Shown here piece after piece: positions 526 through 58,085 of a DNA stretch of 64,000 nt. The stretch covers positions 47,706 to 111,705 of the IMG/VR virus record IMGVR_UViG_3300043411_002995, one strand, 5' to 3'. This stretch comes from a virus. Under the pieces are notes generated by a model. The model was not told where the DNA came from. It ran no database searches and saw only the letters and a list, made by a program, of their open reading frames with translations. A program made the position numbers and the translations under genes. Position 1 is the first letter of the stretch, and every line of letters starts with the position of its first letter.

Positions 526-711
526 GTGCGCCCCGGGACCGAGACGGTCATGTCCACGTCCTTGGCCTGCGCGCGGGCCTGGGCGGCGGACTACGCGGCC
601 CGCGGCTGCCTGGTGCGGCTGGTGGAGCTGCAGCAGCCCCGTGGTCATCCCTGCCGCCCGCCGGCGACCGCTGACGCAGCGCCGCTGCCGGGCCAGCTGG
701 TGCTGTTCTAG
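526..711 (+). CDS. Small hypothetical protein
   Basis: This short plus-strand frame has strongly GC-biased third positions, like real genes here. It could begin at GTG 526 or ATG 550; neither has a clear Shine-Dalgarno sequence. The frame stays open and coding-like further upstream (about 484-525) without a start codon, so the true start or a recoding event is unclear. The product is about 53-61 residues, with an Ala/Arg-rich helix followed by a Pro-rich tail. Its stop overlaps the stop of the convergent minus-strand gene. Function is unknown. Confidence 0.4.
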   Translation: MRPGTETVMSTSLACARAWAADYAARGCLVRLVELQQPRGHPCRPPATADAAPLPGQLVLF

Positions 712-1007
712 GGCCGACGGCGGTTGGCCATCCGCCCCAGGGCCTTGAGGAGCACGGCGGCCAGGGCGCCGCCGGCCGCCCCCTTGCCCAGGGCCCCCAG
801 CGCCGTCCCCTCCGGTCCGTCGTAGGGGTTGCCGGTGGCGAGGGCCTTGGCCTTGGAGGCGCCGTGGAGCACGCCCGAACTCAGGGCGCCGGTCGCCACC
901 AGGCGCTCGACCAGGCGGTCTGGGCGCGGCGCCAGGAAGCCGGCGGTCTTCCGCAGCGGGCTGACCGCGGTCCGAACGAGCTCGTCGCTGAAGGCCTGGA
1001 GCTTCAT
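708..1007 (-). CDS. Small protein with N-terminal F-x-DEL motif
   Basis: The 99-residue product starts at ATG 1007, which overlaps the TGA of the upstream tube gene (ATGA), so the two are translationally coupled. Residues 5-14 read AFSDELVRTA, a member of the short F-x-D-E-L-x-K/R motif seen near the start of several proteins in this window. The C-terminal half is Gly/Ala-rich and could form a membrane-associated helix (GALGKGAAGGALAAVLLKAL). A longer upstream extension of the frame lies inside the tube gene and is rejected. Function is unknown; a virion or assembly role fits the operon. Confidence 0.75.
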   Translation of the reverse strand: MKLQAFSDELVRTAVSPLRKTAGFLAPRPDRLVERLVATGALSSGVLHGASKAKALATGNPYDGPEGTALGALGKGAAGGALAAVLLKALGRMANRRRP

Positions 1008-1827: not shown

Positions 1828-4653
1828 TCAGACCAGGAGGGTCAGCGTGATGTTGTTGAGGGGCAGCGGCACGCTGATGTCGATGTCGACCTCGACGGTG
1901 TCCGGCTGCGAGGAGGATTCCTCGATCCGCGACATCTGCCCGCCGCGGAGCGGCGCCCCGACGCGCGGCGCGCGCTGGGACTTGAGGAACTCGATGCCGC
2001 CCTCGCCGCGGGTCTTCAGGACGTCCATCAGGCCGTCCGTGATGTTGTAGATCCCGAGGAACGGCCGGAACAGCCCGCGGAAGAACCGGGCGATCAGGTC
2101 GACGTTCTTCGTGACCGAGAACTCCTGGAAGTAGATGGTGGAGACGTCGGTGGTGAGCTGGTGGCGGATGCTCAGGGCGGCGTCGACCACCGGCTGGACG
2201 AACACCATGTTGCCGCCGCCGGCGATGGTGTCGAGCTGGGTGTCCGAGAACAGGTCGTCGGAGTGCTCGCGGCCGACGAAGCCGGTCACCGCCAGGTTGG
2301 TCATGCCGGCCTGGCTGGGCAGCCCGGCGGTGAGCCCGGCGATGACCGGCCCAGCGAAGTACCCCGGGACCTTCGTCGCCAGGGCGTTCACCGAGATCGC
2401 CAGGACGTCGGGCCAGGTGTGGACGCACCGACGCGACGCGAACGACGTCGCGTAGCCGGCGATGAGCTGGGCCTGCTCGGTCAGGCTGAGGTCGCGGGTG
2501 ATCCGGTACTCGACGTCCTCGAGCGTGCCGCCGAAGCCGGCCGTCGGGTCGGAGGCCAGGGTGAGCTGGCTCTCCGAGACGATCGCCTCGATCTCGTGGC
2601 GGGTGCCGGTGATGTACGCCTCCTCGTCCGCGGACGGCTCGATCGAGACGATGTCGAGCACGGTCAGCGTGGTGGTGGTGAGGCCGTTGAACTCCTCGGT
2701 CACCGGCACGGTCGTGTTGTCGGTCTTCACCTGGGTGGGCGAGATGACCGTCTCGATCACGTGGTCGTCGTTGTTGGCCCCGTTGGTGGCGCCGGCGACG
2801 CGCAGGACGCGGCCGACGTCGGCCGCCGTGAAGGCCGCGCCGAGGACGGTCCACACCCGCGAGGTGCCGTTGACGCCGTCCGCGTTGACGTCGCGCCCGG
2901 GCTCGCGGTTGATGCCGTAGACGGCCTGGGTGACGCCGCCACCGAAGGTCTCGTTGGCGCCGGGGGCCTCGACCGTCAGCACCGAGGTGGTGCTGACGAC
3001 CGTGCCGATCGTGAACGCGCCGTTGTTGCCGGCGTTGGCGGCGCCGCGCACGAAGAGCAGCTTGCCGACGTCGCCGGCGACGAAGGCCCCGTTGACGAAC
3101 GACCAGGCCTTGGTCGCCGCCACCACCGCGTCCGCGGCGTTGTGGGCGACCTCGCGGTCGAGGTCGCAGATCCACGCTCGCGTGGTCGACAGCATGACCT
3201 CGGGGGTGTCGGGCTCCGGGTCGACCGTGACGCGCGCGCCGCTGACGATCGTGAGGATCTCGTACTCGACGTCGTTGAGGGCCGTGGTCGCGCCGTCGAC
3301 GATGATGAACCGGCCGACGTCGGTGCCGGTGAAGGACGCCGCCGTCATCTGGATCACGTCGGCCGGCGCGTCGTCGAACCAGTCGCGCTCGTTGGGGGTG
3401 ACCGAGCGGTGGACGCCCTCGACGGGGAGGTAGTCGGTGATCTCGAGGAAGTACCCGACGCCGACGTCGTCGGTGATGAACTGCCCGTTGGTGGGGTCCT
3501 TGAAGGTCAGGTTGGTCGCACCGCTGGTACCGTTGCCGGTGCCGGCGCTGGTCGCGACGCCGAGGCCGCTGGCCGGCACGACGACCTCGAGCTCGACGAG
3601 CTTCCGGTTGAAGATGCCGACGCGCTCCTTGCCGACGGTCGACGCCGACATCCCATCGACGTGCGCCTTCACCAGCTGGTGCACCGCGGTGTTGTGGGTC
3701 ATCACCGCGATGGCGTAGACGTCCTTGGCCTCGAGGTACTCGAGCGCGTCCTGGAACGCCTGCTCCTCGTCGTCGAGGAAGCCTTCGTCCAGGCCGACGA
3801 AGCTGACCTCGGTGGTCGTGTTCTGGATCGCCAGGTTGACGCCGTAGGCGCCGACGTTGGAGGGGACCACGGCGCCGACGCCGAAGACCGCCTCGATCGA
3901 GTCGAGGTCGGTGAAGACGGTCAGGGCGTTGGCCAGGTCGGGGCGGATGGCGCGCCACGACAGGACGACGTTGCCCTCGACGACGTCGAGCGGGGTCGCG
4001 TCGGTCACCGACTGGAGGCCCGAGGCGATCTGGACGCCGGTCGCGGTCGGGGTGATGCTGCGGTCGCCGAACGAGGTGACGGGGTAGACCTCCTCCTCGC
4101 GGAACTCGAGCACGCGGTAGACGATGTTCGAGAGGGGCAGGCCTCCGCTCTGCCACTCGGCGGCGACGATCAGCTCGTTGTCGCTGTTCTTGCCGATGAC
4201 GAGCTTCCGCCCGAGGTCCGCGGCGGTGACGCCGCCGCCGGAGATGATGTCGACGTAGAACGTCGGGGCGCCGGCGGCATCGGGGTCGAACGCGGCGAAC
4301 GCGTCGGTGGTCACGTCCTGGAAGAGGTTGGGCGTCGCCAGCTTCCCGGTGATGGCCTGCGCCTTCTTCACCAGGTAGGCGTCGGTCAGGGTCACGCCGA
4401 CCGGCTTGTGGGCGTTCGCCTCGGCCTCGGCCTCCGGCACGTCGGAGAGGTCGACGACGGCGCCGGTGGTCAGCCCCGTGTACGGGAAGATGCTGGTGCC
4501 GAGCTCGTCCTCGGAGTAGATCCCCGCCACCACCTCATCGGCGATCTGGAAGCCCGGGGCCACGACGCACACGGGGAGGCTGGGAAGGGACAGCGAGACG
4601 GCGGCATCCTGGAACTCCTGGATGACTTCGATTGCGGGGCGGCGGTAGGCCAT
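1828..4653 (-). CDS. Contractile tail sheath protein
   Basis: At 941 residues this is much longer than T4 gp18 (659). The C-terminal third has the sheath signature layout: the WPDVLAISVNALATKVPG segment, then GxxNLAVTGFVGREHSD, and a final part ending in a basic/amphipathic segment and a beta-rich tail. The centre (about 380-650) is filled with related repeats built on a DVGR/K-x-L-x-V-x-G-A pattern (near residues 445, 528 and 612), with a possible divergent copy near 147. These look like surface-exposed inserted domains. The sheath polymer surrounds the tube and contracts during DNA delivery. It is followed directly by the tube gene. Confidence 0.93.
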   Translation of the reverse strand: MAYRRPAIEVIQEFQDAAVSLSLPSLPVCVVAPGFQIADEVVAGIYSEDELGTSIFPYTGLTTGAVVDLSDVPEAEAEANAHKPVGVTLTDAYLVKKAQAITGKLATPNLFQDVTTDAFAAFDPDAAGAPTFYVDIISGGGVTAADLGRKLVIGKNSDNELIVAAEWQSGGLPLSNIVYRVLEFREEEVYPVTSFGDRSITPTATGVQIASGLQSVTDATPLDVVEGNVVLSWRAIRPDLANALTVFTDLDSIEAVFGVGAVVPSNVGAYGVNLAIQNTTTEVSFVGLDEGFLDDEEQAFQDALEYLEAKDVYAIAVMTHNTAVHQLVKAHVDGMSASTVGKERVGIFNRKLVELEVVVPASGLGVATSAGTGNGTSGATNLTFKDPTNGQFITDDVGVGYFLEITDYLPVEGVHRSVTPNERDWFDDAPADVIQMTAASFTGTDVGRFIIVDGATTALNDVEYEILTIVSGARVTVDPEPDTPEVMLSTTRAWICDLDREVAHNAADAVVAATKAWSFVNGAFVAGDVGKLLFVRGAANAGNNGAFTIGTVVSTTSVLTVEAPGANETFGGGVTQAVYGINREPGRDVNADGVNGTSRVWTVLGAAFTAADVGRVLRVAGATNGANNDDHVIETVISPTQVKTDNTTVPVTEEFNGLTTTTLTVLDIVSIEPSADEEAYITGTRHEIEAIVSESQLTLASDPTAGFGGTLEDVEYRITRDLSLTEQAQLIAGYATSFASRRCVHTWPDVLAISVNALATKVPGYFAGPVIAGLTAGLPSQAGMTNLAVTGFVGREHSDDLFSDTQLDTIAGGGNMVFVQPVVDAALSIRHQLTTDVSTIYFQEFSVTKNVDLIARFFRGLFRPFLGIYNITDGLMDVLKTRGEGGIEFLKSQRAPRVGAPLRGGQMSRIEESSSQPDTVEVDIDISVPLPLNNITLTLLV

Positions 4654-5340: not shown

Positions 5341-5861
5341 GGGGCACCCGGGTGGCGGCGGTTGACGGTGGCCGTGGCCTGGTCGTAGGCGTCGACCACG
5401 CCGTTCCGCAGGACGTCCGTCGTGGTCTGCTCCACGACCCGATCCTGCTCCTGCTGCTTCTGCTCACCAAACAGGGCGGCGAGCGAGATCGTGCGGAAGG
5501 TCAGCTTGGTCTCGCCGTCGGCCCCCTGGGCTGCGCTGGGCACCCCGGAGCCGGGCGCGAACAACTCCTCGACCGACCCGGCCTCGTCGCCGAGCTCGCC
5601 GGCGACCATCTCCGAGCTCGCGGCCAGGACCGCGCCCTGGTCCTCGGAGTCGATCACCATCCGGTCACCCTCGCTGGTCACGCGCACCGCCTGGGCCCGC
5701 AGGGCGGCCGCGACGTCGATGCCCGGGTCGATGCGACCACGCAAGCGGGTCTGGAGGTTGCCCGCCAGGATCGTCCGCGCCTCGGCGTCGACCTCATCCA
5801 GCCGGGCGACGCCGGCGGTGTCCTTCGGGCCGAAGAAGATCCAGTCGTTGAACCCGCTCAC
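5337..5861 (-). CDS. Hypothetical virion-region protein
   Basis: The product has 174 residues, starts at ATG 5861 overlapping the upstream stop, and ends in an overlap with the next start. The first ten residues are aromatic-rich (FNDWIFFGPKD). The rest is acidic and probably helical, with a Gln/Glu-rich segment (FGEQKQQEQDRVVEQ). There is no signal peptide or membrane segment. Position among head-tail connector genes suggests a structural or assembly role, but the family is not recognised. Confidence 0.7.
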   Translation of the reverse strand: MSGFNDWIFFGPKDTAGVARLDEVDAEARTILAGNLQTRLRGRIDPGIDVAAALRAQAVRVTSEGDRMVIDSEDQGAVLAASSEMVAGELGDEAGSVEELFAPGSGVPSAAQGADGETKLTFRTISLAALFGEQKQQEQDRVVEQTTTDVLRNGVVDAYDQATATVNRRHPGAP

Positions 5862-6115
5862 TCACCGCCCCCGCTCTTCGAGGCGTAGTCCACCATCTGG
5901 TTCGGCGAGGTCAGGGGCGTGGGCGCGCGCTTCGCGGACGCGGGCTTGGGCTGCAGCGGCGCACCGGACTTCAGCCCTGTCTTGGCGTTGGGGCCCTGGG
6001 TCTGGTCCATGACGTCAGCGACGCCGGCGTCGTACGGCGCCGGCGCCTCGTGCTGCTGGGGGAACGCCCCCAGCTTCACGAGCTCGTCCACGAATCCACG
6101 GAGGTAGGGTCCCAT
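5858..6115 (-). CDS. Small protein with N-terminal F-x-DEL targeting-like motif
   Basis: The start is taken at ATG 6115, overlapping the TGA of the upstream gene; an upstream in-frame start would extend into that gene. The N-terminus reads MGPYLRGFVDELVKLGAF, one of the clearest copies of the recurrent F-x-DEL-x-K-x-A/G peptide. The remaining 65 residues are Pro/Ala/Lys-rich and look disordered. Such a layout (targeting-like peptide plus disordered body) fits a small internal head protein, but this is inference. Confidence 0.75.
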   Translation of the reverse strand: MGPYLRGFVDELVKLGAFPQQHEAPAPYDAGVADVMDQTQGPNAKTGLKSGAPLQPKPASAKRAPTPLTSPNQMVDYASKSGGGE

Positions 6116-8109: not shown

Positions 8110-9006
8110 TCAGGTCAGCGTCATCTTGGCCGCGGCGCGCAGGTTGCCGTAGCCCATGCCGACGTACTCCCAGGTCTGCCACGACACCATGTCACCGCGC
8201 TTCTCGATGTAGAACTTGGTGTCGTTCAGGATGTAGAAGTTGCCGAGGTACTTCGGGTCCGTGAAGATGTACAGGGTGCCGGGCACCACGATCGACGACT
8301 TGATCGTCACCACCAGCTTGTGGCCGAGGATGGTGTTGTACTTGTAGCCGTTGACCAGGATCTCGCTGGCCAGCGGGGAGCCGATCACGGCGCCCTCCTG
8401 GGTCATGAAGTCGTCCCAGTCGGCCTTGTGCATCAGGATGGTGCCGACGGCGAGCTCGTCGGTGTCCAGCGCCTTGAAGAGCTTGACCAGGTTCTCGCTG
8501 GTCGCCGGGCCGGCGGCCGCGGGGGCGATGGTCTTGCCGTTCGCCGCGATCACCGCGTCGGTGAACTCGATGAACTTGCCGTCCTCGATCTTCTGGATGT
8601 CCTTGACCGAGTTCTCCTCGATGACCTTGGTCACCGGGTAGTCGTAGGCCAGGAGCTCCGCCTCGTTCTTCTTGAACTTGTCGGACTCGATCTTGAAGAA
8701 CGGGATCTCGTAGCGGTCGCTCTCGATGTACCGCTCGTGGGTCTTGCCCCGGAAGTTGACCGCGGCCGCCGAGCTCTGCGGCTCGATGTCGACGATCTTG
8801 ACCAGGGTGTCGTGGTTGACCGACCGCTGGCAGTCGGCCTTGGTGAGGTACTCCGGCGGCAGGATGCTGCGCACGAAGCTGACCTCGCGGAGGCGCTCGC
8901 GCACGAAGGCACCGCCGGCCTGGGCGGCCTTCTCGAGGCCGTCCGCCGTGTCCAGGCGCGAGACGAAGAGGTTGTTGAAGGTGGCCGCGTCGATCTGGGG
9001 GTCCAT
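8110..9006 (-). CDS. Major capsid protein
   Basis: The 298-residue product fits the HK97-like capsid layout: an N-terminal arm, a long helix region (about 45-120) and alternating strands and helices to the C-terminus. The C-terminal half has features typical of these proteins: a P-domain-like stretch (KADWDDFMTQEGAVIGSPLA), LGHKLVVTIKSSIVVPGTLYIF, and a final region with EKRGDMVSWQTWEYVG. It is flanked by small head-protein genes, with the protease a few genes upstream. Residues 24-28 read LEKAA, close to the KxA pattern of nearby proteins, so a short N-terminal propeptide may be removed. Near-capsomer stoichiometry would be expected. Confidence 0.85.
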   Translation of the reverse strand: MDPQIDAATFNNLFVSRLDTADGLEKAAQAGGAFVRERLREVSFVRSILPPEYLTKADCQRSVNHDTLVKIVDIEPQSSAAAVNFRGKTHERYIESDRYEIPFFKIESDKFKKNEAELLAYDYPVTKVIEENSVKDIQKIEDGKFIEFTDAVIAANGKTIAPAAAGPATSENLVKLFKALDTDELAVGTILMHKADWDDFMTQEGAVIGSPLASEILVNGYKYNTILGHKLVVTIKSSIVVPGTLYIFTDPKYLGNFYILNDTKFYIEKRGDMVSWQTWEYVGMGYGNLRAAAKMTLT

Positions 9007-9966: not shown

Positions 9967-10018
9967 TTGAGATCCCATCCTCTCACGGGATCTCAATACG
10001 TCAACTCAGCCGTTGACG
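9967..10018. repeat. Two adjacent perfect inverted repeats
   Basis: TTGAGATCCC (9967-9976) and GGGATCTCAA (9987-9996) form a perfect 10-base inverted repeat with a 10-base loop. Directly beside it CGTCAAC (9999-10005) and GTTGACG (10012-10018) form a second, flanking the stop codon of the upstream minus-strand gene. Neither has a T run. They could be hairpins in the mRNA or operator half-sites; the minus-strand TTGACG hexamers also resemble -35 boxes. Confidence 0.6.
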
Positions 10019-12149: not shown

Positions 12150-13967
12150 TCAGATCTCCTTCATGCGCCGCGCGAGCCGCTGGACCGACTCGAGGATCGA
12201 GGCGTCGAGAGCCGGATCGCTCATCAGCCCGCCGAACTTGGTGAGGTGGTGAGTCGCGCGATCGTGCGGTGCTGCAACAGACGCGAGTCGCTCGAAGCCT
12301 CCACGGCTCCCGGCTTGCGATCGTTGCTGTTGAACACCTGCATGGATGTACGCGAGTGGGATCAATCCTGTGATCCCGGCCGTCTTGCGCTGATGGTAGG
12401 CTGGGCCGTTTTTTGCGTCAAGTCCGGCACCTGTGCCGTGGGGCTCCAGATCCCGCGGCGCCCCCAGCTGTTGCGCTGCCACGGTCGCCCCGACACCTGC
12501 GCTGATCAGGAGCGGGAGCATCCAAGGGTGCTTCGCGATCGCGCGCACCGGCGACGGCGCCTTCTCGACCAGCTGGGGGAACGCCCGACGGAAGACCATG
12601 AACCCGGCGGCGAGTGCGAGGCTGGCGGGCACCACGCCGGGCATACCCGACGAGAGCCGTCGCTGCTCGTTCGTCATGGGATACCACTGGCTGTCGCGGT
12701 TGTACCCCTCGATCTCCCCGCGCTTCTCCATCCGCTCGAGGCGGGCGGCGAGGATCTCGGGATAGCAGCTCCGGTCGGCGATGTAGGGGCGCAGCTGCAG
12801 CGCGACCTTCTCGCTGACGTCGTGCTCGCTCAGGTGCTCGAGCTCGCGTGCCCACTTCGGCATCGGGCCAGGCCGGTGCTCGTCGAACACCAGGCGGTGG
12901 GCCGCCAGCTTGTCCGCGAGGGCACGGGCGCCCTGCTTGACCAGGATGATCCGCTGGAACTCCTGCGGGCGCAGGTCGATCCCCAACGCGGCGAGCGTGG
13001 CGAAGATCTCGCGCAGCGGGAAGCCCGTGAGCTGGTTGAGCAGCGCCGGCGGCAACGCCGGCTCGGTCGACTTGACCGCACCGGCGTCCTCCATGAAGGC
13101 GTCGACCTTCGCCTGGTCGGACGGCGTCACGCCCTCGATCTTCGTCTCGCCCGCCGGGACCTCCTTGGTCAGGTCGGCGGTCTTGCGCGCCGAGCTCGCC
13201 TTCTCGGCGGCCGCGTACTTGGCGTAGAAGCTCTCGCCGAGCTCGGCCGAGCTCGGCCGGATCTCGTAGATGCACCCATCGTGCGCGACCTTCTTCAAGA
13301 CGTGGCTCGCCTTCTCGGCACCGATCGTCACGAAGGAAATGTCGAAGAACTTCGGCTTGTCGTTGAACGCGAAGACCCGCCGTCCGTCCGGCAGGATCTT
13401 GTTCATCTGGTAGCGGAGGTGCGGGCAGTACTCGGCCCGGTTCTTCGCGCGGTTGCCGCAGACGGAGCAGCGGTCCCACGGGACCCGGCACCCCATCGAG
13501 ACGTCCCAGTACCGGTTCGCGGCGAGGTCGCCGAGGATGTCCTGGCACTTCGCGTCGTCGACGCGGACGATCAGCAGGACGCGGTGCATGCCCGGGTCGT
13601 AGGCCGAGAGCGTGACCTTCTCGCCGTACGCCCGCGCCGGGTCCTTGTTGACGTGGTGCTTGAACGGGTAGGCGTAGTGCTGGAACGTCTCGTAGCCGTA
13701 CTCGGGACCGGGGTGGCGCAGCGCCTCCTCGGGGAAGTAGTCGCCGTTGACGTTCGACCCGTAGTACTCGCCCGACCCCATCGCGTCGATGAGCAGCTGG
13801 GTCTTGCCCGGGATCGGCGCCGCCGATCGCAGGTACTGCTCGATGGACGCGGGGAGCTCGCGCGCCATCTTGATGTGGCCGATCGACCGCTCGAGGTTGG
13901 CCTCGATCGGGAAGATGTGCGGGCCGGTCCGCGCGTCGTACCCAGCGTAGTTGATCAGCTTGTACAA
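12150..13967 (-). CDS. Prohead protease with long C-terminal extension
   Basis: The 605-residue product begins at TTG 13967, preceded by GGTGGAAG. It has the layout of herpesvirus/T4-gp21-type prohead proteases: a conserved SNVNGDYFPEEAL segment (71-83), a histidine motif FKHHVNKDP (102-110) and a serine motif DVSMGCR (155-161), with KFFDISFV (206-213). His104 or 105 and Ser157 are the likely catalytic pair. A CxxC...CxH cluster (167-183) may bind zinc. Usual proteases of this class are near 200-250 residues, so about 370 additional C-terminal residues are unusual. It probably cleaves scaffold and head proteins during maturation. Confidence 0.8.
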   Translation of the reverse strand: MYKLINYAGYDARTGPHIFPIEANLERSIGHIKMARELPASIEQYLRSAAPIPGKTQLLIDAMGSGEYYGSNVNGDYFPEEALRHPGPEYGYETFQHYAYPFKHHVNKDPARAYGEKVTLSAYDPGMHRVLLIVRVDDAKCQDILGDLAANRYWDVSMGCRVPWDRCSVCGNRAKNRAEYCPHLRYQMNKILPDGRRVFAFNDKPKFFDISFVTIGAEKASHVLKKVAHDGCIYEIRPSSAELGESFYAKYAAAEKASSARKTADLTKEVPAGETKIEGVTPSDQAKVDAFMEDAGAVKSTEPALPPALLNQLTGFPLREIFATLAALGIDLRPQEFQRIILVKQGARALADKLAAHRLVFDEHRPGPMPKWARELEHLSEHDVSEKVALQLRPYIADRSCYPEILAARLERMEKRGEIEGYNRDSQWYPMTNEQRRLSSGMPGVVPASLALAAGFMVFRRAFPQLVEKAPSPVRAIAKHPWMLPLLISAGVGATVAAQQLGAPRDLEPHGTGAGLDAKNGPAYHQRKTAGITGLIPLAYIHAGVQQQRSQAGSRGGFERLASVAAPHDRATHHLTKFGGLMSDPALDASILESVQRLARRMKEI

Positions 13968-13971
13968 GCGA

Positions 13972-14811
13972 TCACTTCCACCGGGCGTTCCCGCCCGCGA
14001 CGGACGCTGACGGCCTGACCCGCGGCGTCTGCGGCGCCTGCTCGCTCCGAGCTTCGGCCGCCTGCATCCGCTGCACCTTCTCCTCGATGGTGACCGGCCC
14101 ACGCTTCGGCGCCGTCGGCCGGACTGCGCCGCCCATCCGCCCCTCGCGGATCTCGCCCACGTTGCGGTTGGCATCGGACCAGCGCTGAGCCTTGTTCGAG
14201 GGGGCGTTGTAGGCGGCCTCGGCGCGCGCCTTGGTCGCGGTGTAGTCCGTCCTCCGCGCCTGCATCCGCGCCTTGCGCGCGTCGGCCTCGGCCTGCGTGA
14301 GCTGCTTCCCAGAACCTGACGCGCGCGCCTGGGCGTTGACCAGCTCGCCGCCGACCATCACCTTGCGGCCCGGCGCGTTGTTGGCGTCGAACTTCTTGTT
14401 GTAGGCCTGCTCGCTGATGACGCGCTGCGCGCGCTGCGGGGCTGTCTCCCACGGCACGCCGGGGTCACCGCGACCGCCACCGCCCCCCTGCTTCTTCGGG
14501 GTGGCGGGCGGTGGAGTCGGATCTCCGGCCTTGCTCGGGCGGTAGCCGGGCGACGGACGCCATCCCTGGGGTGCGTTCTTCGCCGGCGACTCCATCTTCT
14601 GGGTCGGGATGGCGCCGAGCAGGTTGCCGCCGGGCGCGCCCATCTGGTTGGGCGGCTTGGGCGCCGGCGCGCCGGGGACGCCGGTCGAAGGAGGGCGAAC
14701 GATGCCGCCGGGCGGCGGCGGACGTGGAACCGACGGCACGCCAGCCGGCGCACCCCAAGGCCCTGCGACCTTGAGGAGCTCGTCGGCGAAGCCTGCGAGG
14801 TATCGGTTCAC
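13972..14811 (-). CDS. Pro-rich protein with N-terminal F-x-DEL targeting-like motif
   Basis: The 279-residue product starts MNRYLAGFADELLKVAGPWG, spaced like the T4 capsid-targeting peptide (aromatic residue, F, acidic residue, then A-G). A long Pro/Gly-rich low-complexity region follows (about 20-120), then a charged helical C-terminal half rich in Arg and Ala. It lies directly upstream of the protease gene. It could be an internal head protein delivered to the prohead and cut by the protease. No enzyme motif is visible. Confidence 0.7.
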   Translation of the reverse strand: MNRYLAGFADELLKVAGPWGAPAGVPSVPRPPPPGGIVRPPSTGVPGAPAPKPPNQMGAPGGNLLGAIPTQKMESPAKNAPQGWRPSPGYRPSKAGDPTPPPATPKKQGGGGGRGDPGVPWETAPQRAQRVISEQAYNKKFDANNAPGRKVMVGGELVNAQARASGSGKQLTQAEADARKARMQARRTDYTATKARAEAAYNAPSNKAQRWSDANRNVGEIREGRMGGAVRPTAPKRGPVTIEEKVQRMQAAEARSEQAPQTPRVRPSASVAGGNARWK

Positions 14812-16240: not shown

Positions 16241-17092
16241 TCAGCCTTCGCTGGCGCCGCCGCGGAGGCGCTCCTGCAGGGCGGTGTGGTAGGCCATCAC
16301 GCCCTCCTTCCGACCGAGCATCCGGGCCTTCTGGGCGACCTCCATCACGTCGTTGGTCCCCTCGTCGTAGCCCTTCTGCTTGCCCTTGCTGCTGCCGAGC
16401 GCCGCACCACCGACACCGGCGGCGGCGCCGAGGCCGAGCATCTTGGCGACGCCGCGGCCGGCGCTGGGCGCGGTCTGCGCGGCCGGGCGCCCGAAGCGCA
16501 TCATGCGGGCGAGGCGCCCCGCACCGGGCGAGGCGACCTTGACGAGTTCGTCCTGGAATCCGCGCATGAAGTTCATCGGCATCGCCTTCTTCTCCTGGGG
16601 CTGACTCGACTGCTCGAGCATACAGCGGACGAACGCCGCCTTGGGTGGAACTGCCTTGCGTGTCGCTACGTGATCGATGAGGTACTCGCTGAACGTGTCG
16701 GCGAAGTCCTCTTCCGGGCTCGTCTTGGCGTACTCGTCGACGAACCCAGCGCCGGCGGTGGACGCCGTCCACGCGGCGAGCAGCCGCGGGTTCGTTCGCA
16801 CGATCGTGTGGGCGAGTTCATGAAAGACAGATCGCCGAAACTGCTCAGGATCGATCCGGTCGCCATCGTACACGCCCTTGTCGTAAACGACAATTGCACC
16901 CTCGGCCGGCTCGTACTTCGAGTGCCCCGGTGCGCTCGGCGGCGCATCTTCGAGGACCGGGCGCCGGACGAGCGTGCGGAGGTTCGGGTTCTCCTCGAGC
17001 CAGCGCGCGGGGAGCGGTGCGAGGAACCGCTGCAGCTCGGCCACCTCCGCCGGCGTCCAACGGCCCTCGAGCTCGAGCCCGCGAACCCTCAC
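16241..17092 (-). CDS. HExxH metalloprotease-like domain fused to DEL-motif region
   Basis: The 283-residue product starts at GTG 17092, overlapping the upstream stop. HELAH at 91-95 is a zinc-metalloprotease signature, and EEDFADTFSEYL (about 127-138) offers a downstream acidic ligand. Residues 173-187 then read MNFMRGFQDELVKVA, a copy of the recurrent targeting-like motif placed internally, followed by a Gly/Ala-rich tail. One uninterrupted frame covers both parts, so this is a fusion, although an internal start could release the second part. Substrate unknown. Confidence 0.72.
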   Translation of the reverse strand: MRVRGLELEGRWTPAEVAELQRFLAPLPARWLEENPNLRTLVRRPVLEDAPPSAPGHSKYEPAEGAIVVYDKGVYDGDRIDPEQFRRSVFHELAHTIVRTNPRLLAAWTASTAGAGFVDEYAKTSPEEDFADTFSEYLIDHVATRKAVPPKAAFVRCMLEQSSQPQEKKAMPMNFMRGFQDELVKVASPGAGRLARMMRFGRPAAQTAPSAGRGVAKMLGLGAAAGVGGAALGSSKGKQKGYDEGTNDVMEVAQKARMLGRKEGVMAYHTALQERLRGGASEG

Positions 17093-19292: not shown

Positions 19293-19631
19293 TCACCTCT
19301 TGAACTTGGCGGCATCGTAGTCCCGGTGGAGCCGCTTCAGCTGGCCCTTGGCGGGGCGCTTGTTGAAGAGGTCGTTGAAGTTCGTGTAGGCGGCCTCGCT
19401 CGCCTGTGCGTGGCCCGTGTTCGGGTCGACGGCCGCGGCCAGGTAGCGCGGCTTGTCGCCACCGCGGAGCCCGCGCTTGTAGGCGCTCGAGCTCGCCATG
19501 CCCGTGGCCGCGACCGTGCCGGCCGCGGTGACCGCGATCAAGGGGTGCTTGACCGTGAACTTGCCCACGCCCTTCAGCACGCCGCCGACCTTGACGAGCT
19601 CGTCCGCGAAGCCGGTGAGGAACGCATCCAT
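19293..19631 (-). CDS. Small protein with N-terminal F-x-DEL motif and hydrophobic segment
   Basis: The 112-residue product starts at ATG 19631, overlapping the upstream TGA. The N-terminus is MDAFLTGFADELVKVGGVLK, a clear copy of the recurrent peptide. Residues 28-48 (KHPLIAVTAAGTVAATGMAS) may form a transmembrane helix. The C-terminal half is basic. A giant alternative frame extending upstream through the next gene is a shadow and is rejected. Function unknown. Confidence 0.75.
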   Translation of the reverse strand: MDAFLTGFADELVKVGGVLKGVGKFTVKHPLIAVTAAGTVAATGMASSSAYKRGLRGGDKPRYLAAAVDPNTGHAQASEAAYTNFNDLFNKRPAKGQLKRLHRDYDAAKFKR

Positions 19632-20566
19632 CACAGATCCCGGAGCTTCTGCTGGTTGATCGTGATCTCGTCGTCGATGCGCAGGATGTCGCGCAGGCCG
19701 TTCTTGATCTCGTCGGTCTTGCGCTGGATGGTGTCGAGCGACACGAGCACCGGGTGCGCGCCGTTGATGATGGTCGTGTTGCCGAGGTTCTCGCTGATCA
19801 GGTCGGCGGCGACCGGCGCGATCGCGAGCTTCACCAGCCGGGACCGCACGTCCCCGTGCGTGTCGGCGATGAGGCGGGCCTCGAACTTGGGGATGAGCTC
19901 GCCCGCGAGCTTGGCGTGCCCGGCGATCACCGAGGCGACCAGGACCTGGCGCATCGTGGCGCCACCGAGCACGGTCTGCTTGACCTGCTCGAACGCCCGC
20001 TTCTCGAGGGACTCGACCTCCATGCCCAGGCGCATGACCTGGTCGGCGAGCTGCTGGCGTGCGGCCGCCTGCTTCTGCAGGATGACGATCACTCGCTGGC
20101 GATCGCTGGGCCCCGCGAGCCCGTTGTGCACCGCGGCGGGGTCGACGCCCATCATCGAGGCCATCGATGGGCCGGGCTGCGGGATGCCGCGCGGCGGGCC
20201 GGCGTAGTCGGAGGTGGTGACAGGCAGCGTCTCCGGGTCGACCGATCCGTCGCCGGCCCCGCAGCCGCAGGCTGCGAGCACGACCTTCGAGTCGGCGAGG
20301 GGGAAGGCGATCTTCTCCTTCTGCGCGGTCTTCGACCAGAGCCCCTGGTGCGTGGCGATGTTCGCCATCTCGCAGACCCGGGCGATCTGGTTCGCGTTGA
20401 GCTCGTTCTCCTTCGCGAGCTTCGTGATCACGTCGTTGAGCTTGGAGCCCTCCTCGAGGTAGCGCTTCGCCGCGATCTTGGCGAACGACTCGAGCCGATC
20501 CGACGCCACCTTCGAGACCTGCGGCTTGCGGCCCTCGAGCAGGTATGAGAAATGCCCAACGTTCAT
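19631..20566 (-). CDS. KxA-rich head-region protein, first gene of its block
   Basis: ATG 20566 starts a 311-residue product; an upstream start is possible but lies across the putative promoter. The sequence has many hydrophobic-x-K-x-A motifs (VSKVASD, FAKIAAK, ITKLAKE, WSKTAQK, LVKLAIA). The core contains LAACGCGAGDGS with clustered cysteines, then helical regions and a C-terminus with NTTIINGAHPVLVSLDTIQR. Being the first gene behind the TTGACC-N15-TATACC element, it probably heads the long transcript that reaches the tail genes. Function unknown; virion-associated by context. Confidence 0.7.
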   Translation of the reverse strand: MNVGHFSYLLEGRKPQVSKVASDRLESFAKIAAKRYLEEGSKLNDVITKLAKENELNANQIARVCEMANIATHQGLWSKTAQKEKIAFPLADSKVVLAACGCGAGDGSVDPETLPVTTSDYAGPPRGIPQPGPSMASMMGVDPAAVHNGLAGPSDRQRVIVILQKQAAARQQLADQVMRLGMEVESLEKRAFEQVKQTVLGGATMRQVLVASVIAGHAKLAGELIPKFEARLIADTHGDVRSRLVKLAIAPVAADLISENLGNTTIINGAHPVLVSLDTIQRKTDEIKNGLRDILRIDDEITINQQKLRDL

Positions 20567-21329: not shown

Positions 21330-21336
21330 TCGGGAT

Positions 21337-21359
21337 CACTCCTCCTTTGCGGGCATAAG
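21337..21359 (+). promoter_or_regulatory. GGCATAAG promoter-like element 1
   Basis: CAC at 21337-21339, then 12 bases, then GGCATAAG at 21352-21359. It lies 22 bases before the ATG at 21382. The upstream half closely matches the copy at 46565 (CACTCnnCCTTT). It is one of six such plus-strand elements; see findings. Confidence 0.6.
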
Positions 21360-21381
21360 AAAGGACAGAAGGAGCCACACC

Positions 21382-21717: not shown

Positions 21718-21728
21718 CAACCTCAACC

Positions 21729-22331: not shown

Positions 22332-22829
22332 ATGACGCCGTTCCTCCAGGCCTTCACCGATGAGCTGGTCAAGCTCGGCGCGGACAACGACCTGGTCGAC
22401 GTCTTCCGGGAGGCCAAGAAGGAGACCCGGAGGCAGCCGGCGCGGGACAGCGCCCTGAGCGCGCTGCGCGGGAACGGCACCCCGGTCAGCCGCAACTACC
22501 TCGCGTCGATGTTGATCGGCGGGATCTCGGTGCCGGCGGTGGCGGTCATGAGCAAGCGGATCTCGCGGGCCCTGAACAACAAGACCGTGCAGCGTGAGCT
22601 CCGCGGCCTTGGGCCGATGGCGCACCCGAAGAAGGTCCGGGCGCTGCGCGACGAGTTGCACACCGGCCCGTCGTTCGGGCGCGCGCGCCCCGGCACGCCG
22701 TTGAACACCCGGCCGCTCATCACGCACGGCGAGGCCGCCGGTCTTGCGGCGAGCGGCGTCGCGACCGGTGGCCTGGTGCAGATGATCCGGGACTACTTCG
22801 CGGGCAGCGCGCCGACGACCCCGCGCTAG
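22332..22829 (+). CDS. Plus-strand protein with N-terminal F-x-DEL motif
   Basis: The 165-residue product starts MTPFLQAFTDELVKLGADND, a clear copy of the targeting-like peptide, although it is on the opposite strand from most others. A charged helical region follows, then a hydrophobic stretch (ASMLIGGISVPAVAVMSKR) and a basic tail. The stop overlaps the convergent terminase stop by 4 bases. The motif on an independently transcribed gene argues that it is a protein-level signal and not a by-product of one gene cluster. Confidence 0.75.
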   Translation: MTPFLQAFTDELVKLGADNDLVDVFREAKKETRRQPARDSALSALRGNGTPVSRNYLASMLIGGISVPAVAVMSKRISRALNNKTVQRELRGLGPMAHPKKVRALRDELHTGPSFGRARPGTPLNTRPLITHGEAAGLAASGVATGGLVQMIRDYFAGSAPTTPR

Positions 22830-42779: not shown

Positions 42780-44108
42780 TCAGATGATGCCTTCGCCGCC
42801 GGTGACCGCGCCCTTGCCGGTGACCATGCGGTAGCCCGCGGCGCCGAGCGCGCCGGCACGGATGAGCGCGCCCTTCTCCTGCGGGCTCAGCGAGCCCCAG
42901 CCGTTGTTCGTCCACTTCTTGAACGAGTCCATCGCCTTGACCTCGCCCGGAGGATCCGCCGGCGGTTTGGGGCCGTCGGCGTCGACCTTGGCCTTCGGCG
43001 AGATGTCCGGCGCGGGACCGTCGGTCCCCGTCCCCTTGCCGCCCTGAACGACTGCCAGCTCGGGCTTGCCACGATCGGCCTTGGGCGAGGCCGCGTCGGC
43101 CGCATCGGCGGTCGCCTTGGCACGCTCGCCCTCGGCCTTGACGACCTTCGCCTCGCCGAGCTGCGCCGGGGGCGGCGTCGGGGCCTTGGTCGCGTTGGCG
43201 GGACTGCCCGCCGCGGCGTTGCCGCGCGCCACCGACGTGTTCGCCGGCGCGGCCGGGGCATCGTCCCAGCCAGCGTCGATCTTCTTCATCGTGGTGTCGC
43301 GCTTGTCGATCGCCCGCCGCGCCTTCTCCTGGGCCACCGCGACGTTCTTCTGCGCGGCCGGCAAGGCACCCTTCGCGGCCGCGCCGCGGAGGCCGGCCGC
43401 CTGGGTCGCGGCCTGGACCCGCGCGAGTTCGGCCCGCGCCTTGTCGGGCGCGTTGATCGTGCGCAGGTGGCGAGCCTCGCGAGCCTTGGTACCGACGAAG
43501 GGGGCGTTCTTGGCGACGCTGCGGCCCGCGGCCGCCACGGGCTTCGCAGCCGCCCGCGCCGCACCTGCGACGGGCTTCGCAACCGCCCGCGCCGCGCCGC
43601 CACCGAGGTGGCGTGCCACGCCCTTGAGGGCGCCGAAGCCGCCGCGGATGGCGCCGATCAGCGCCTCCTTCTCCATCATGGCCATGGAGACGAGGTCGTG
43701 GCCCACCTTGGCCAGCTCGGCCTCGACCACCGGATGCAGGTCCGGGGGGACCTCGCTGCAGAGCGAGGCGAACATCGCCTCGAGGTCGCCCTGGATCGCT
43801 GCCGCCGCGACCTTGTCGAACACCTCGCCGAACTCCTCCGGGCTCAGGTCGACCTGGTTGAGGATCTGGTCGATGTAGACGTCGGCGCGCTTCTGCATGC
43901 CGGCGTTGGCGCCGCGCATCCCGACCGATCGAAGGATCTCGATGTCACGGTCCAGTCGCCGCGCCACCTTCTCGAACGGGGTGGCCGCGGCTGCGGTCTT
44001 CGCCATCGGCGCCGGCGCGCGCGGCTTCACGCCGGCCTCGGCGTTCGCCAGCTTCTGGAAGAAGGCGTTGCTGGACTCGGCGGTGAGGTAGGAGAAGTGG
44101 TCGCGCAT
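42780..44108 (-). CDS. Ala/Lys-rich head protein with KxA motifs
   Basis: The 442-residue product starts MRDHFSYLTAESSNAFFQKL and then shows KxA motifs (FFQKLAN, MAKTAAA, FEKVARR, MQKRADV). A helical domain (about 50-150) with EFGEVFDKVAAAAIQ is followed by a very Ala/Lys/Pro-rich, histone-like middle (RAVAKPVAGAARAAAKPVAA) and a short ordered end. The basic character suggests DNA or scaffold contact inside the head. It lies directly upstream of the portal gene. Confidence 0.68.
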   Translation of the reverse strand: MRDHFSYLTAESSNAFFQKLANAEAGVKPRAPAPMAKTAAAATPFEKVARRLDRDIEILRSVGMRGANAGMQKRADVYIDQILNQVDLSPEEFGEVFDKVAAAAIQGDLEAMFASLCSEVPPDLHPVVEAELAKVGHDLVSMAMMEKEALIGAIRGGFGALKGVARHLGGGAARAVAKPVAGAARAAAKPVAAAGRSVAKNAPFVGTKAREARHLRTINAPDKARAELARVQAATQAAGLRGAAAKGALPAAQKNVAVAQEKARRAIDKRDTTMKKIDAGWDDAPAAPANTSVARGNAAAGSPANATKAPTPPPAQLGEAKVVKAEGERAKATADAADAASPKADRGKPELAVVQGGKGTGTDGPAPDISPKAKVDADGPKPPADPPGEVKAMDSFKKWTNNGWGSLSPQEKGALIRAGALGAAGYRMVTGKGAVTGGEGII

Positions 44109-45349: not shown

Positions 45350-46495
45350 CTACGCCTCGCCGGAGATGACCTGCTTGATCAGCGCCTTCTCGGGGGCCGG
45401 GAGCGACTCGTAGATCTCGACCGGGTTGGCCGCGAACTGGCTGGCGAAGCTCGACCCCATGTAGCCGGCGATCTTCTTCTGGACAGCCTCCTTGCGCAGG
45501 TCGGCCTCGGTGATCGTCATCCCGTCGACCTCGTCGGACCACCCCTCGGCGACCTTGCCCATGGTGCTGGCATAAGGGTCGCTGAGCCCCCGATCGTAGT
45601 ACCGCGACAGCCCGGTCGCGGCGTCGATGGCCTGGAGGGCTGCTGCAGCGTCCTCCGGGCTGGTCTCCCCCAGGGAGGCCGCCAGCTTGTCGAGGACCGA
45701 CCGAGCGTCCTGGTTGCGAGGAAGGAGGGACTTGCGCTGCTCGATGTGGGCCAGCACGTGGCGGTTCCAGCCCGGCGACGCCCACTTCTCGAGGAGGTCG
45801 TGACCGGAGACGTCCACCTCGAGCTCGGCCGCGCGGGCCTGCACGTTGCGCGCGAACTGGTGACGGTGCGGAGGCGAGAGGTCCATGGCGTACTTGTCGA
45901 AATACTCGGCCGCCACCTTCACGTACTCGGCCGTCGGCATCGCGTACTTGCGCAGGATGGTCCCGTCCTCCGAGCGCACCACGAGCCCCCAGTGCTCGTT
46001 GGGCAGGTTGACGAAGGCCTCGATCTCCGCGGCCTGGGCCTGCTTCTCGATGAACTCGCGCTCGGCGAGCTTGCGCAGCATCCACCCAGTCTCCGATCCC
46101 TCGACGAAGGTGTTGCTCGTCGCCTCGTCATCACCCACCCGCGCCGCGTACGCGGCCACCATCTTCGAGTTCGGCACCCCGTACGCGTCGCATGCGGTCT
46201 TGATGAACTTGGCGGCGATGAACCTCGCCGGCCAGGCCAGCTTCTCGTGCGTCGCCTGGAAGTACTGGGCGCTCAACCAGGCGTTGCCCGGGTCGTTCAC
46301 CGGGTAGCGCCGCATCACCGCCGCGCGCTTGGTCAGGACGATCAAGCCGAAGTCGGTGTCCGGCAACGCGGCGTGCTGGTCCGCCGTCAAGACCGTGGTC
46401 TGCGCGCGCGCGATCGCGGCAGGCATGGCGATCTTGCTCATCAACTCGTGCTTGCTGTCGTCGTAGAAGTCGAGGACCGCGGCTGCGATGGTCAT
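45350..46495 (-). CDS. Protein with two copies of an L-P-D/N-x-x-F-G-L domain
   Basis: The 381-residue product contains two related units: LPDTDFGLIVLTKRAAVMRR with YPVNDPGNAW (about 44-75), and LPNEHWGLVVRSEDGTILRK with YAMPTAEYVK (about 165-195), each followed by a helical segment. This resembles a small domain family of phage proteins with a conserved RKYP motif. The N-terminus reads FYDDSKHELMSKIAMPA, close to the KxA motif pattern. It is the first gene behind a TTGACC-N16-GATACC element. Function unknown. Confidence 0.68.
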   Translation of the reverse strand: MTIAAAVLDFYDDSKHELMSKIAMPAAIARAQTTVLTADQHAALPDTDFGLIVLTKRAAVMRRYPVNDPGNAWLSAQYFQATHEKLAWPARFIAAKFIKTACDAYGVPNSKMVAAYAARVGDDEATSNTFVEGSETGWMLRKLAEREFIEKQAQAAEIEAFVNLPNEHWGLVVRSEDGTILRKYAMPTAEYVKVAAEYFDKYAMDLSPPHRHQFARNVQARAAELEVDVSGHDLLEKWASPGWNRHVLAHIEQRKSLLPRNQDARSVLDKLAASLGETSPEDAAAALQAIDAATGLSRYYDRGLSDPYASTMGKVAEGWSDEVDGMTITEADLRKEAVQKKIAGYMGSSFASQFAANPVEIYESLPAPEKALIKQVISGEA

Positions 46496-55406: not shown

Positions 55407-57798
55407 TCTCGACCGCGTCCGTGACAGTTGGACCCGTGTTGTCGACGCGCACCAGTGCCGCCGACGCGAGCTTGTGACCCTGGAAGGCGATGGCCGGCGC
55501 CGCGGCGACGGTCAGATCACCGGTGGTGACGTCGGCGGCGGTGATCTCCTGGACCTCGGCCCCGCCGTTCGTGATGTCGATCAGCAGGAGCGCCGTCACC
55601 TCCGTGTTGGAGAGCCAGCTGAGGTCGGCGTCGGTCTTGGTGTTGAACCCCCCGCCGGGCGCCGAGTAGCTGAAGCCCGTGCGAGCGATGTGCTCGTTGC
55701 GGAGGCAGACGGCGTCGTGGTTGAGGCGGCTCTGCTCCTCGGTGAGAACGGCGTAGGTGAGGTTGAGCACGGTCTGCAGGTCGGCGTCGGGGATGTCGAT
55801 CGCCAGCAGCGTGGAGCTGAACCTGGCGAGCACCGCCCGGTAGCCGTAGAACGGCCCCGACGGGATCCAGATCGTGTCGCCGGCGTCGACGCCGAGCGTG
55901 ACGAAGTTGGCCATGTTGTCGAAGAAGTTGCCGGTGGCCTGGCTGCCGGAGCCGTCGATCCCGCCCGTGTGGACGAATCGGTAGAAGTGATCGAACGAGA
56001 AGGTGCTGTTGAACTCGTTGTTCGCGACGAGGGTGCTCAGGTCGATCGCGACGTCGAGGTCGACGTCGTCCTCGGTGACGGTGAGGGTCTCGGTCTCCTC
56101 GGACTGGAAGGAGAAGACGTACTCGGTCCACTGCGGCTTCATGTTGTCGAGGAACGTCACCAGCTCGGTGACGTTCACGCGGCGGGTCACCGCCTCGACC
56201 AGGATCTGCGGCAAGAAGAGGTGGTGCTCGAGCAGCCGCAGGGCCTTCGTCTCGTCGGTGTCGCCTGGCCCGCGGCTCGCGTCCGACGTGAGGAACCGGT
56301 TGATGCCGGCGCGGCCGAGGCGGTTCGCCACGAAGCCCGGCTCGTTGTTCCGGTCGATGATGCTGACGCCGGTGGTGAGCGAGTCGAACCGCGCGACCGC
56401 ATCACCGCGGGCGACCACGGGGGCGAGGCCGGTGGGGATCAGGTAGGTGATGACCTGGCCGCGTGGGTCGGTGACGTCGACCTCCCCGAGCGTCGTGTCG
56501 AGGCGGGTGACGGTGCCGGCGCGCTTGGCGAAGGGGAGGCCCAGCAGGATGTGCATGCCTCGCTGGAGATTCCCAGGCGTCGAGCCCGTCCAGAACGTGT
56601 ACCAGAGACCCTGCAGCGCGAGCTTGTACTCCTCGGAGTTCTCCCGGAAGAAGTCGATCAACACCCCGAAGTTGCGGTACGGCGTCTCGCGGTTGACCTG
56701 CGTGACCTCGGCCCACATCTGCCGGCGCCGGTCGGCCTCGGGGCCGAGCGACGAGACCCGGAAGGCCACGCGCGAGGCGAGCAGGCCGCCCTGCACGACG
56801 TAGTCGACGCCCTCGATCAGCACCTGGGTGGGGTCGTCGACCAGGTCGCGGAGGTTGGGGATCGAGACGATCGCCTTGTCGACCTTCAGGCCGTGGGGGA
56901 AGGCGTTGATGGTGTAGGGCACATCCCCGGCCTGGGTCGAGGGGAAGACTTCGGCGACGGTCAGCGCGATCGGGCTGACCACGGCGTTGATGGTGTAGGT
57001 CCCCGCGTTCGGCCCGCCGGTGATGACGAGCGTGCGCCCGGCCTTCACCGCGCTGAAGTCCGCGTTCACGTCGGTGAGCGTCGAGTCCTCGACCTCGCCG
57101 CTCGATCCGGTCATCGGCAGGGTCGCCGTGCCGTTGTAGGTGTACATCGCCCGCACCGTGGCGCCGTCGGCGATCGTGGTGCCGGCGATGCGGGCCACGG
57201 TGCCAGCCACCTCGTCGAGCTCGTAGTCGAGGTCACGCGTGTAGTAGCGGTGCTGGTAGCGGACGGTGACGGTCTCGTCGGTCGGGATGCGTCCGTCGTC
57301 GAGAGCCTGGATCACGCCCGTCGCCAGGTTGATCGCGTAGTCCCGGTTCAGCGTGAACTGCTGGCCACCCAGGACGACGGCCACCGTGCCCGGGATGATG
57401 TCGCCGTACCGCAGCGATCGCGCGGCGGTGTCGAAGAAGCGGAGGGTCTCCTCGTGGAAGATCTGGCCCGAGCTCGAGGTGAGCTGCAGCGTGTCGAAGA
57501 ACGCTGTCTCCCTCGAGACCGAGACCGCCGCCAGCAGCACGAGGGTGAGCTCGTCGGTCTGCGGGAAGAGGTCGCAGGTCTCGTCGTCCATGACGAGACG
57601 GTTCCAGCGCTCGCTGAGGAACACGGGGACCTTGGCGATCTCGGTCGAGAGGCCCGCCTCCATGACCTTCTGCTCGAGGTTCGAGGCGATCTGCACCTGC
57701 GCCGACCAGAAGGTCTCGAAGAGCTTGCGGTCCTCCGTCGGCAGGAGGTCCCACACGTCCTCGAGGAACCTCCACAGGAAGCCAGCGGAGACGCTCAC
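55402..57798 (-). CDS. Baseplate structural protein
   Basis: The 798-residue protein has an N-terminal helical part (GFLWRFLEDVWDLLPTEDRK), a beta-rich middle and a repeat-like module (about 238-281: FSAVKAGRTLVITGGPNAGT with TINAVVSPIALTV) related to those in the sheath. The C-terminal region is alpha/beta with LVANNEFNSTFSFDHFYRF. It lies between a gpJ-like protein and fibre genes, consistent with a baseplate periphery role. No exact family was assigned. Confidence 0.72.
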   Translation of the reverse strand: MSVSAGFLWRFLEDVWDLLPTEDRKLFETFWSAQVQIASNLEQKVMEAGLSTEIAKVPVFLSERWNRLVMDDETCDLFPQTDELTLVLLAAVSVSRETAFFDTLQLTSSSGQIFHEETLRFFDTAARSLRYGDIIPGTVAVVLGGQQFTLNRDYAINLATGVIQALDDGRIPTDETVTVRYQHRYYTRDLDYELDEVAGTVARIAGTTIADGATVRAMYTYNGTATLPMTGSSGEVEDSTLTDVNADFSAVKAGRTLVITGGPNAGTYTINAVVSPIALTVAEVFPSTQAGDVPYTINAFPHGLKVDKAIVSIPNLRDLVDDPTQVLIEGVDYVVQGGLLASRVAFRVSSLGPEADRRRQMWAEVTQVNRETPYRNFGVLIDFFRENSEEYKLALQGLWYTFWTGSTPGNLQRGMHILLGLPFAKRAGTVTRLDTTLGEVDVTDPRGQVITYLIPTGLAPVVARGDAVARFDSLTTGVSIIDRNNEPGFVANRLGRAGINRFLTSDASRGPGDTDETKALRLLEHHLFLPQILVEAVTRRVNVTELVTFLDNMKPQWTEYVFSFQSEETETLTVTEDDVDLDVAIDLSTLVANNEFNSTFSFDHFYRFVHTGGIDGSGSQATGNFFDNMANFVTLGVDAGDTIWIPSGPFYGYRAVLARFSSTLLAIDIPDADLQTVLNLTYAVLTEEQSRLNHDAVCLRNEHIARTGFSYSAPGGGFNTKTDADLSWLSNTEVTALLLIDITNGGAEVQEITAADVTTGDLTVAAAPAIAFQGHKLASAALVRVDNTGPTVTDAVEI

Positions 57799-58085
57799 CG
57801 GCGGTCCTTGTACGCCCGGTTGAACTTCTCGCGGTCGATCGGCTCGCGGGTCGTGGCAGGCGCGCCGAGCTGCCCCGGAACGACGGCGATCGGCGAGGCG
57901 GCGGTCAGCGGCAGGCGCGTGCCGGCGAGCGCCGGGTTGAGCAGGATGGACGGCGGGGTCACGCCCGGGGACATCATCCCGTGGGGGATCTCGCTGGTGT
58001 TGATCTCGCCGTCCTCCGCCCGCTTGTACAGGCAGCCCATCGCCCCGACCTTCACCAGCTCATCGACGAAGCTGAGCAAGTTCAT
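57795..58085 (-). CDS. Small protein with N-terminal F-x-DEL motif
   Basis: The 96-residue product begins MNLLSFVDELVKVGAMGCLY, a clear copy of the recurrent peptide, here inside a baseplate operon. The rest is Pro/Ala-rich and mostly disordered, ending in a basic tail (REKFNRAYKDRR). Its location outside the head gene block shows that the motif is not confined to one cluster. It overlaps the baseplate genes on both sides by 4 bases. Confidence 0.75.
   Translation of the reverse strand: MNLLSFVDELVKVGAMGCLYKRAEDGEINTSEIPHGMMSPGVTPPSILLNPALAGTRLPLTAASPIAVVPGQLGAPATTREPIDREKFNRAYKDRR

Follow-up and report, generated by a model that had tools for sequence, protein, structure and literature searches.

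A short N-terminal tag on unrelated phage proteins as a likely capsid-targeting propeptide with a proposed Lys-based processing site

The analyzed window is a 64,000-nucleotide stretch of viral DNA that comprises bases 47706-111705 of a 111,705-base IMG/VR contig (GC 68%). Its genes include those for a large terminase subunit, a portal, a major capsid protein (MCP), a tail sheath, and a 2095-residue protein of the RNA polymerase beta/beta' type, and the terminase, portal, MCP, and sheath genes identify the source as a tailed phage with a contractile tail. The nearest annotated relatives are Salmonella phage Arash (180,819 bp) and the Vibrio phages D69, D148, and D181, with Bacillus phage G as a remoter one; in Arash and D69, the head module shows synteny with the window. 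Directly after the terminase gene, the minus-strand head module is broken by four small plus-strand genes (20655-22829), the last of which carries the tag described below and is kept in relatives.

Within the window, a short peptide of the pattern F-x-D-E-L-x-K-x-[AG] recurs at the start of several proteins and inside others (Table 1). An earlier note, made from the letters alone, had listed such copies, and its coordinates were correct for all of them, N-terminal and internal alike; a ninth, weaker copy at 11763 was absent from its list. The strict pattern occurs seven times in the predicted proteome of the window (20,467 residues), compared with a shuffle mean of 0.003 and an analytic expectation of 0.002, and these copies are joined by one with a K-to-R exchange and by the weak one. 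The internal copies at 15102 and 11763 are not mutually independent, because they have a longer homologous stretch in common (D-A-A-G-R-I-x-A-R-x-F). No copy of the motif was found in the remaining 47.7 kb of the contig, outside the window.

Table 1. Tagged proteins, LxKxA-containing head proteins, and the predicted protease of the window.
Feature	Coordinates	Strand	Remarks
Tagged 99-aa basic protein, pI 11.3	708..1007	-	MKLQAFSDELVRTA, K-to-R; motif 992-966
Tagged 85-aa protein	5858..6115	-	N-terminal MGPYLRGFVDELVKLG; motif codons 6094-6068
Major capsid protein	8110..9006	-	LEKAA at residues 24-28
Two head-module proteins	10006-10863 and 10902-11387	-	repeated KxA/LxKxA; between protease and capsid genes
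Scaffold-like acidic protein, 237 aa	11434..12147	-	weak internal copy AGRIMARGFFSEFHKLA, 11763-11737; position of Arash gp223
Predicted prohead protease, gp21/herpesvirus assemblin fold	12150..13967	-	from homologs, model, and invariant His/Ser
Tagged 279-aa basic protein, pI 11.0	13972..14811	-	GTG start; NRYLAGFADELLKVA; motif 14790-14764
Core/scaffold-like protein, 134 aa	14824..15228	-	internal AGRITARAFADELSKLA, motif 15102-15076; three LxKxA sites
Metallopeptidase-like protein with in-frame tagged C-terminal unit	16241..17044	-	weak Peptidase_Mx1; motif 16558-16532
Tagged 112-aa basic protein, pI 10.0	19293..19631	-	MDAFLTGFADELVKVG; motif 19610-19584; position of Arash gp221
LxKxA-rich core protein	19631..20566	-	5 sites, 0.6-0.8 expected; homolog of Arash gp220
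Tagged 165-aa basic protein, pI 11.1	22332..22829	+	MTPFLQAFTDELVKLG; motif 22353-22379; family kept in relatives
LxKxA-rich protein adjoining portal gene	42780..44108	-	4 sites, 1.2-1.5 expected
LxKxA-rich protein near portal gene	45350..46495	-	9 sites, 0.8 expected
Tagged 96-aa protein	57795..58085	-	MNLLSFVDELVKVG; motif 58070-58044

The tagged starts are supported by homologs. Homologs of the 85-aa protein in four relatives have the same ATG and the same tag, homologs of the 99-aa protein carry MNLESFADELLRL and MFLEAFTDELIRI, and the tagged start of the 279-aa protein is kept at that position by relatives. Simple gene calling picks later starts for the 85-aa and 279-aa proteins, and in both cases the upstream tagged start is retained in relatives. 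The gene for the 96-aa protein is not part of the head module; it is flanked by two large genes, of which one weakly matches tail proteins. Searches of the tagged window proteins against PHROGs and Pfam returned no family except the weak metallopeptidase match of the 16241-17044 protein. In this last protein, the motif is preceded by ...EKKAMPMNFMRG, and a conserved internal ATG at 16576 has a ribosome-binding-like aggaga ahead of MNFMRGFQDELVKVA, so that the one frame may give two products. The purine stretch before this ATG resembles a ribosome-binding sequence and at the same time encodes a conserved E-K, as seen in five genomes. The EKxA-M junction at this point could suggest a polyprotein, a reading weakened by the fact that the ribosome-binding-like sequence encodes that junction.

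The peptide proved to be kept well beyond the window. A degenerate DNA motif gave 69 matches in 24 contigs that had been chosen through their capsid protein, where the reversed pattern gave none, and 116 matches against 2 reversed in 25 further contigs, which were found by the motif itself and contain at least one match each by construction; 13 control contigs had none. Back-translated FxDELxKIA retrieved at least 120 stretches from IMG/VR, compared with 36 for the same codons in scrambled order; the contigs concerned are those among the matches listed and not a random sample, and some internal matches of this large scan look like chance. Among the matches listed, an ATG lies at most 10 codons upstream in 82 of 132 copies and a GTG or TTG in another 22, which places a start codon within 10 codons in 104 of the 132.

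Ninety-seven proteins among the matches listed have the tag within 12 codons of their start, and their comparison defines its anatomy. The distance from Met to Phe has its mode at 8 residues, and a small residue (A, S, or G) directly precedes the Phe in 88 of the 97, at a position that the query did not include. Hydrophobic residues prevail at positions -3 and -4, only the tag columns are invariant, and conservation ends abruptly at the A/G of KIA. The resulting consensus, M-x(2-6)-[hydrophobic]-x-x-[AGS]-F-x-D-E-L-x-K-[ILV]-[AG], spans roughly 17 residues. The relatives slightly widen the consensus given in the earlier note by the small A/G/S before F, and exchanges of K for R and of A for S occur. 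A literature search with the motif string retrieved no paper, and we found no description of this peptide in the open-access literature, in which work on targeting sequences concerns mainly T4, P1, and SPN3US.

Clustering of the 97 proteins without their tags at E 1e-3 gave 76 groups (among the matches listed), which bears out the proposal of the earlier note that the peptide is a portable signal on unrelated bodies. Recognizable bodies include an SNF2-type helicase, three C92 permuted papain-like amidases, a putative zinc peptidase, and others, in addition to small basic proteins; most of the tagged bodies among the matches listed have no Pfam match. Homologs of a single body may carry the tag, a variant of it (FTDELVKIS, FADELLRL), or no tag, and the helicase is tagged in some phages and untagged in others. 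The tagged proteins are strongly basic: their median pI is 10.0 (n=34) versus 5.96 for the remaining proteins encoded in these genomes (n=1228; P 1e-13), and 10.3 for a wider tagged set. All tag-bearing phages found here are metagenomic contigs, and the phages with the tag, large and for the most part uncultured, form a widespread group. Cyanophage PA-SR01 was considered as a member of this group and rejected: it has a homolog of the helicase, but neither a tag nor LxKxA enrichment.

The second half of the tag, L-x-K-x-A, recurs in proteins of the head. In the MCP, KxA is invariant in all 31 sequences examined, about 25 residues from the start and just before the conserved RERLREVSF arm, although distant capsid proteins have K, R, or T instead of L two residues ahead of the Lys. 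When expectations were derived from residue shuffles, scaffold-like and core proteins were enriched in LxKxA up to 12-fold (for example, 3 sites versus 0.2 expected in the 14824-15228 protein); no enrichment was seen in the sheath, the RNA polymerase, or most tail proteins. Most relatives show their top enrichment in the same families as the window. Among 250 scanned Arash proteins, the five most enriched are gp223 (8 copies), gp220 (8), gp225 (5), gp222 (6), and gp218 (4), against 0.5-0.9 expected; their genes are grouped immediately upstream of the capsid gene, and each of the five proteins has been detected in virions by mass spectrometry (PMC10585845). The control patterns LxExA and LxRxA are flat in the Arash proteome, with no enrichment of LxExA. 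The reversed pattern AxKxL is mildly enriched (1.4-fold in virion proteins, 1.7-fold in cargo), so part of the LxKxA signal reflects helical composition, but the 8-12-fold peaks do not. Protease homologs contain [LFI]-x-K-x-A roughly 25-40 residues after their own start: in close relatives as IxKxA (HIKMA) some 30 residues from the N-terminus, in distant ones as [LF]EKTA. In phage G, the protease homolog has LxKxA and the capsid protein lacks KxA. Tag, capsid protein, protease, and scaffold-like proteins share L-x-K-x-A or KxA, a correspondence that holds for the sequences and does not demonstrate cleavage. The scaffold-like proteins Arash gp223 (L096, 17505-18272) and D69_271 (L097, 12633-13442) are built of repeats of about 40 residues (LxxGxxFxxAxELVKEAS...LEKAAAV), which resemble small helical domains and contain two KxA per unit.

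The predicted head protease has homologs in Arash (gp222), D69 (D69_270), and phage G (gp19), three phages that also have a homologous capsid protein. Pfam and NCBIfam assign it to no protease family, and PHROGs gave weak matches to head maturation proteases, which does not single out one of the MEROPS families S77, S78, and S80. A model of its 210-residue core (mean pLDDT 82.5) aligned best with T4 gp21 in VIA-align (5jbl; Z 9.7, rmsd 2.9 over 129), followed by more than 20 herpesvirus protease entries (Z 5-7), which ranked above unrelated MCE-domain rows; in BFVD, it matched phage G gp19 (5e-14) and many annotated prohead proteases (E about 1e-6). Since Foldseek against the PDB alone returned nothing significant, the fold assignment rests on VIA-align and BFVD. 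His104/105 and Ser157 (in VSMG) are invariant in 18 homologs and follow each other as the catalytic residues of gp21 do; SPN3US gp245, aligned with gp21, has the catalytic order H, S, D (PMC5694885). We assign the His and Ser as putative catalytic residues from this order and from knowledge of the family, and proteolytic activity is likewise inferred. The protease family is associated with the tag: it is present in 30 of 39 contigs picked through the tag (among the matches listed) and in none of 16 picked through its scrambled version. Tag-picked contigs without it are mostly short or have only internal, chance-like copies. The contigs of the two sets differ in length, and the contrast is therefore somewhat inflated. 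In some relatives (L021, L022, L026, L029, L019, L030), the protease genes encode up to about 2030 aa or match only piecewise, and three proteins of the protease alignment include an inorganic pyrophosphatase domain; such genes may carry inserted domains or inteins.

The earlier note had likened the peptide to the capsid-targeting sequence (CTS) of T4, and the shared L-x-K-x-A site and the encoded head protease of gp21/assemblin fold strengthen this analogy. In T4 IPIII, residues 4 and 7 belong to the targeting part of the sequence and residues 8 and 10 to its processing part, gp21 cuts after [LI]-x-E, and the internal proteins are described as basic (PMC9026906). As on T4 IPI-III and Alt, the tag is a short N-terminal peptide on different cargo, in which an aromatic, targeting part is followed by a processing part; on this mapping, F-x-D-E would be the former and L-x-K-x-A the latter. 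Also as in T4, the site occurs in the scaffold, the capsid protein, and the protease, the carriers are basic, and a protease with the gp21 fold is encoded. The tag differs from the T4 sequence in its length (about 17 residues instead of 10), in its consensus (FxDELxKIA instead of MKTYQEFIAE), in its site (LxKxA instead of [LI]xE, with Lys rather than Glu at the conserved position), and in its far more diverse carriers, which include large enzymes.

Other phages offer partial parallels. The N-terminal 30 residues of P1 DarB suffice to package a reporter; the P1 capsid is cut after Glu120, and a separate scaffold seems to be absent (PMC9024508). DarB and the P1 protease Pro resemble the present case in the N-terminal signal, the contractile tail, and the enzyme cargo, but no common sequence is known (we compared DarB through that paper only), and DarB shows that a different N-terminal sequence can serve the same job. 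The phages phiKZ and SPN3US also carry an RNA polymerase and a head protease of the gp21 superfamily, which removes N-terminal propeptides from many internal proteins. However, the ejection-protein propeptides cut by gp175 or gp245 are mostly 111-254 residues long with AxE sites (PMC10052503), and these phages have no short portable consensus tag. Arash and D69 share with the window syntenic core genes and LxKxA-rich core proteins, those of Arash being the ones seen in virions, but only diverged forms of the tag were seen in them (GLVDGLLKAA in Arash gp221, LTDGMDKVA in D69).

We consider it likely that the tag is a capsid-targeting propeptide, which the gp21-like prohead protease would cut at LxKxA instead of the LxE used in T4. 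The F-x-D-E half, as a short amphipathic helix, would most likely dock the carrier to the scaffold or protein core of the head during its assembly, and the docked carrier would be enclosed as the capsid shell forms. The L-x-K-x-[AG] half would most likely be the recognition site of the protease, which would probably cut the same site also in the capsid protein, in itself, and, many times over, in the scaffold-like core proteins. Once cut off, the mature cargo, most of it basic, would lie free amid the packaged DNA, from where it would enter the next host by ejection. All four steps, from docking and packaging to cleavage and ejection, are inferred, and so is the delivery into the head that the earlier note had proposed, as virion proteomics is lacking for any tagged phage. 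Superposition of L-x-K on the T4 [LI]-x-E site suggests cleavage after the Lys, so that the scissile bond may lie between LxK and xA; the bond is not established, and a cut after the A/G is also possible. Ends produced by a cut after Lys cannot be told from those produced by trypsin, which suggests that such processing would be missed in ordinary virion proteomics.

Several observations count against this reading. In distant capsid proteins the L position is not kept, the bodies of the cargo are not significantly depleted of LxKxA (23 sites versus 28.7 +/- 5.2), and the 96-aa protein is encoded outside the head module. In addition, the Arash homolog of the helicase, gp217, has been found in virions by mass spectrometry (PMC10585845), which in itself favors this reading, but both it and the RNA polymerase are present there without a tag, which means that the tag is not the sole way in. 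The same proteomic study covers the core proteins and no tagged cargo beyond the diverged gp221 (PMC10585845). Its table gives 100% coverage for gp223 (PMC10585845), which would argue against removal of this protein, but the coverage column is unreliable, as gp193 is listed with 92% from two peptides. Since trypsin makes the same ends, these data cannot show cleavage after Lys.

The same evidence can be read as an uncleaved docking motif of the head core, in which LxKxA is a contact surface through which cargo, capsid protein, and scaffold-like proteins bind one partner and is kept on the mature proteins. The arrangement of LxKxA within the helical repeats of the Arash and D69 scaffold-like proteins could reflect contacts by a repeated docking helix rather than cuts; the core proteins of Arash remain detectable in virions, and the site is not strongly avoided in the bodies of the cargo. 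We nevertheless regard this explanation as unlikely, because the set of proteins that carry the site, namely the capsid protein, protease, and cargo at their N-termini and the scaffold many times, coincides with the substrates of T4-type prohead proteases (which cut the scaffold repeatedly and the capsid protein and cargo N-terminally; PMC9026906), of which the protease itself is a possible further one (PMC5694885), because such a protease is encoded, and because conservation stops at the A/G.

That the tag serves as an amphipathic signal for the membrane or for a host target, acting in the infected cell and not in the virion, is very improbable. The tag is amphipathic as a helix (helical moment 0.38 versus 0.24 shuffled), and some bodies are glycine-rich and hydrophobic, but membrane-like segments occur in only 7% of tagged bodies compared with 24% of window proteins, the fixed DE and K are not needed for membrane binding, and the LxKxA sites in capsid and scaffold proteins and the basic bias would be left unexplained. 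There is scarcely any room for recent paralogs or a spreading domain, that is, for one duplicated ancestor whose bodies diverged past recognition: the stretch common to the copies at 15102 and 11763 and the recurrence of a few body families between genomes would fit, but the number of body clusters (76 for 97 among the matches listed), the recognizable enzymes of unrelated folds, the sharp end of conservation at the A/G, and the gain or loss of the tag on the same helicase do not. Chance or low-complexity sequence, to which some internal matches of the large scan may be due, is excluded as the source of the motif by the shuffle (7 seen versus 0.002 expected), reversed (185 versus 2 in relatives), scrambled, and control-contig (0 in 13) counts.

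If the tag is a capsid-targeting propeptide, a single 9-residue pattern finds, by sequence alone, head-internal and probably injected proteins, including helicases, amidases, and peptidases, in a large and barely characterized phage group. It would also imply a new prohead-protease specificity, in which Lys takes the place of Glu, and provide a new capsid-targeting tag, open to testing as a handle for protein packaging. Capsid targeting of the T4 and P1 types is known; new here are the different consensus and the Lys-based site. We lean slightly toward the broader proposal of a clade-wide code in soil and freshwater phages, in which one interchangeable FxDELxK[IV]A address would load any protein that bears it into the head and a protease with a Lys-based LxKxA site, in contrast to the Glu-based ones of T4 and phiKZ-like phages, would release the load. 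In that case, the tag would offer a direct way to find injected phage effectors whose function is unknown.

Two further genes of the window were compared with their Arash counterparts. The polymerase-type protein is encoded by a single 2095-aa open reading frame (31869-38156) with matches to several RNA polymerase beta-subunit families; in Arash, beta (gp206) and beta' (gp216) are separate genes. The C-terminal 600 residues of the window protein align with gp216, and it may represent a fused polymerase. The tail sheath protein (1828-4653, 941 aa) matches Arash gp236 at its ends and has a longer middle part, which contains a weak pectin-lyase-like match.
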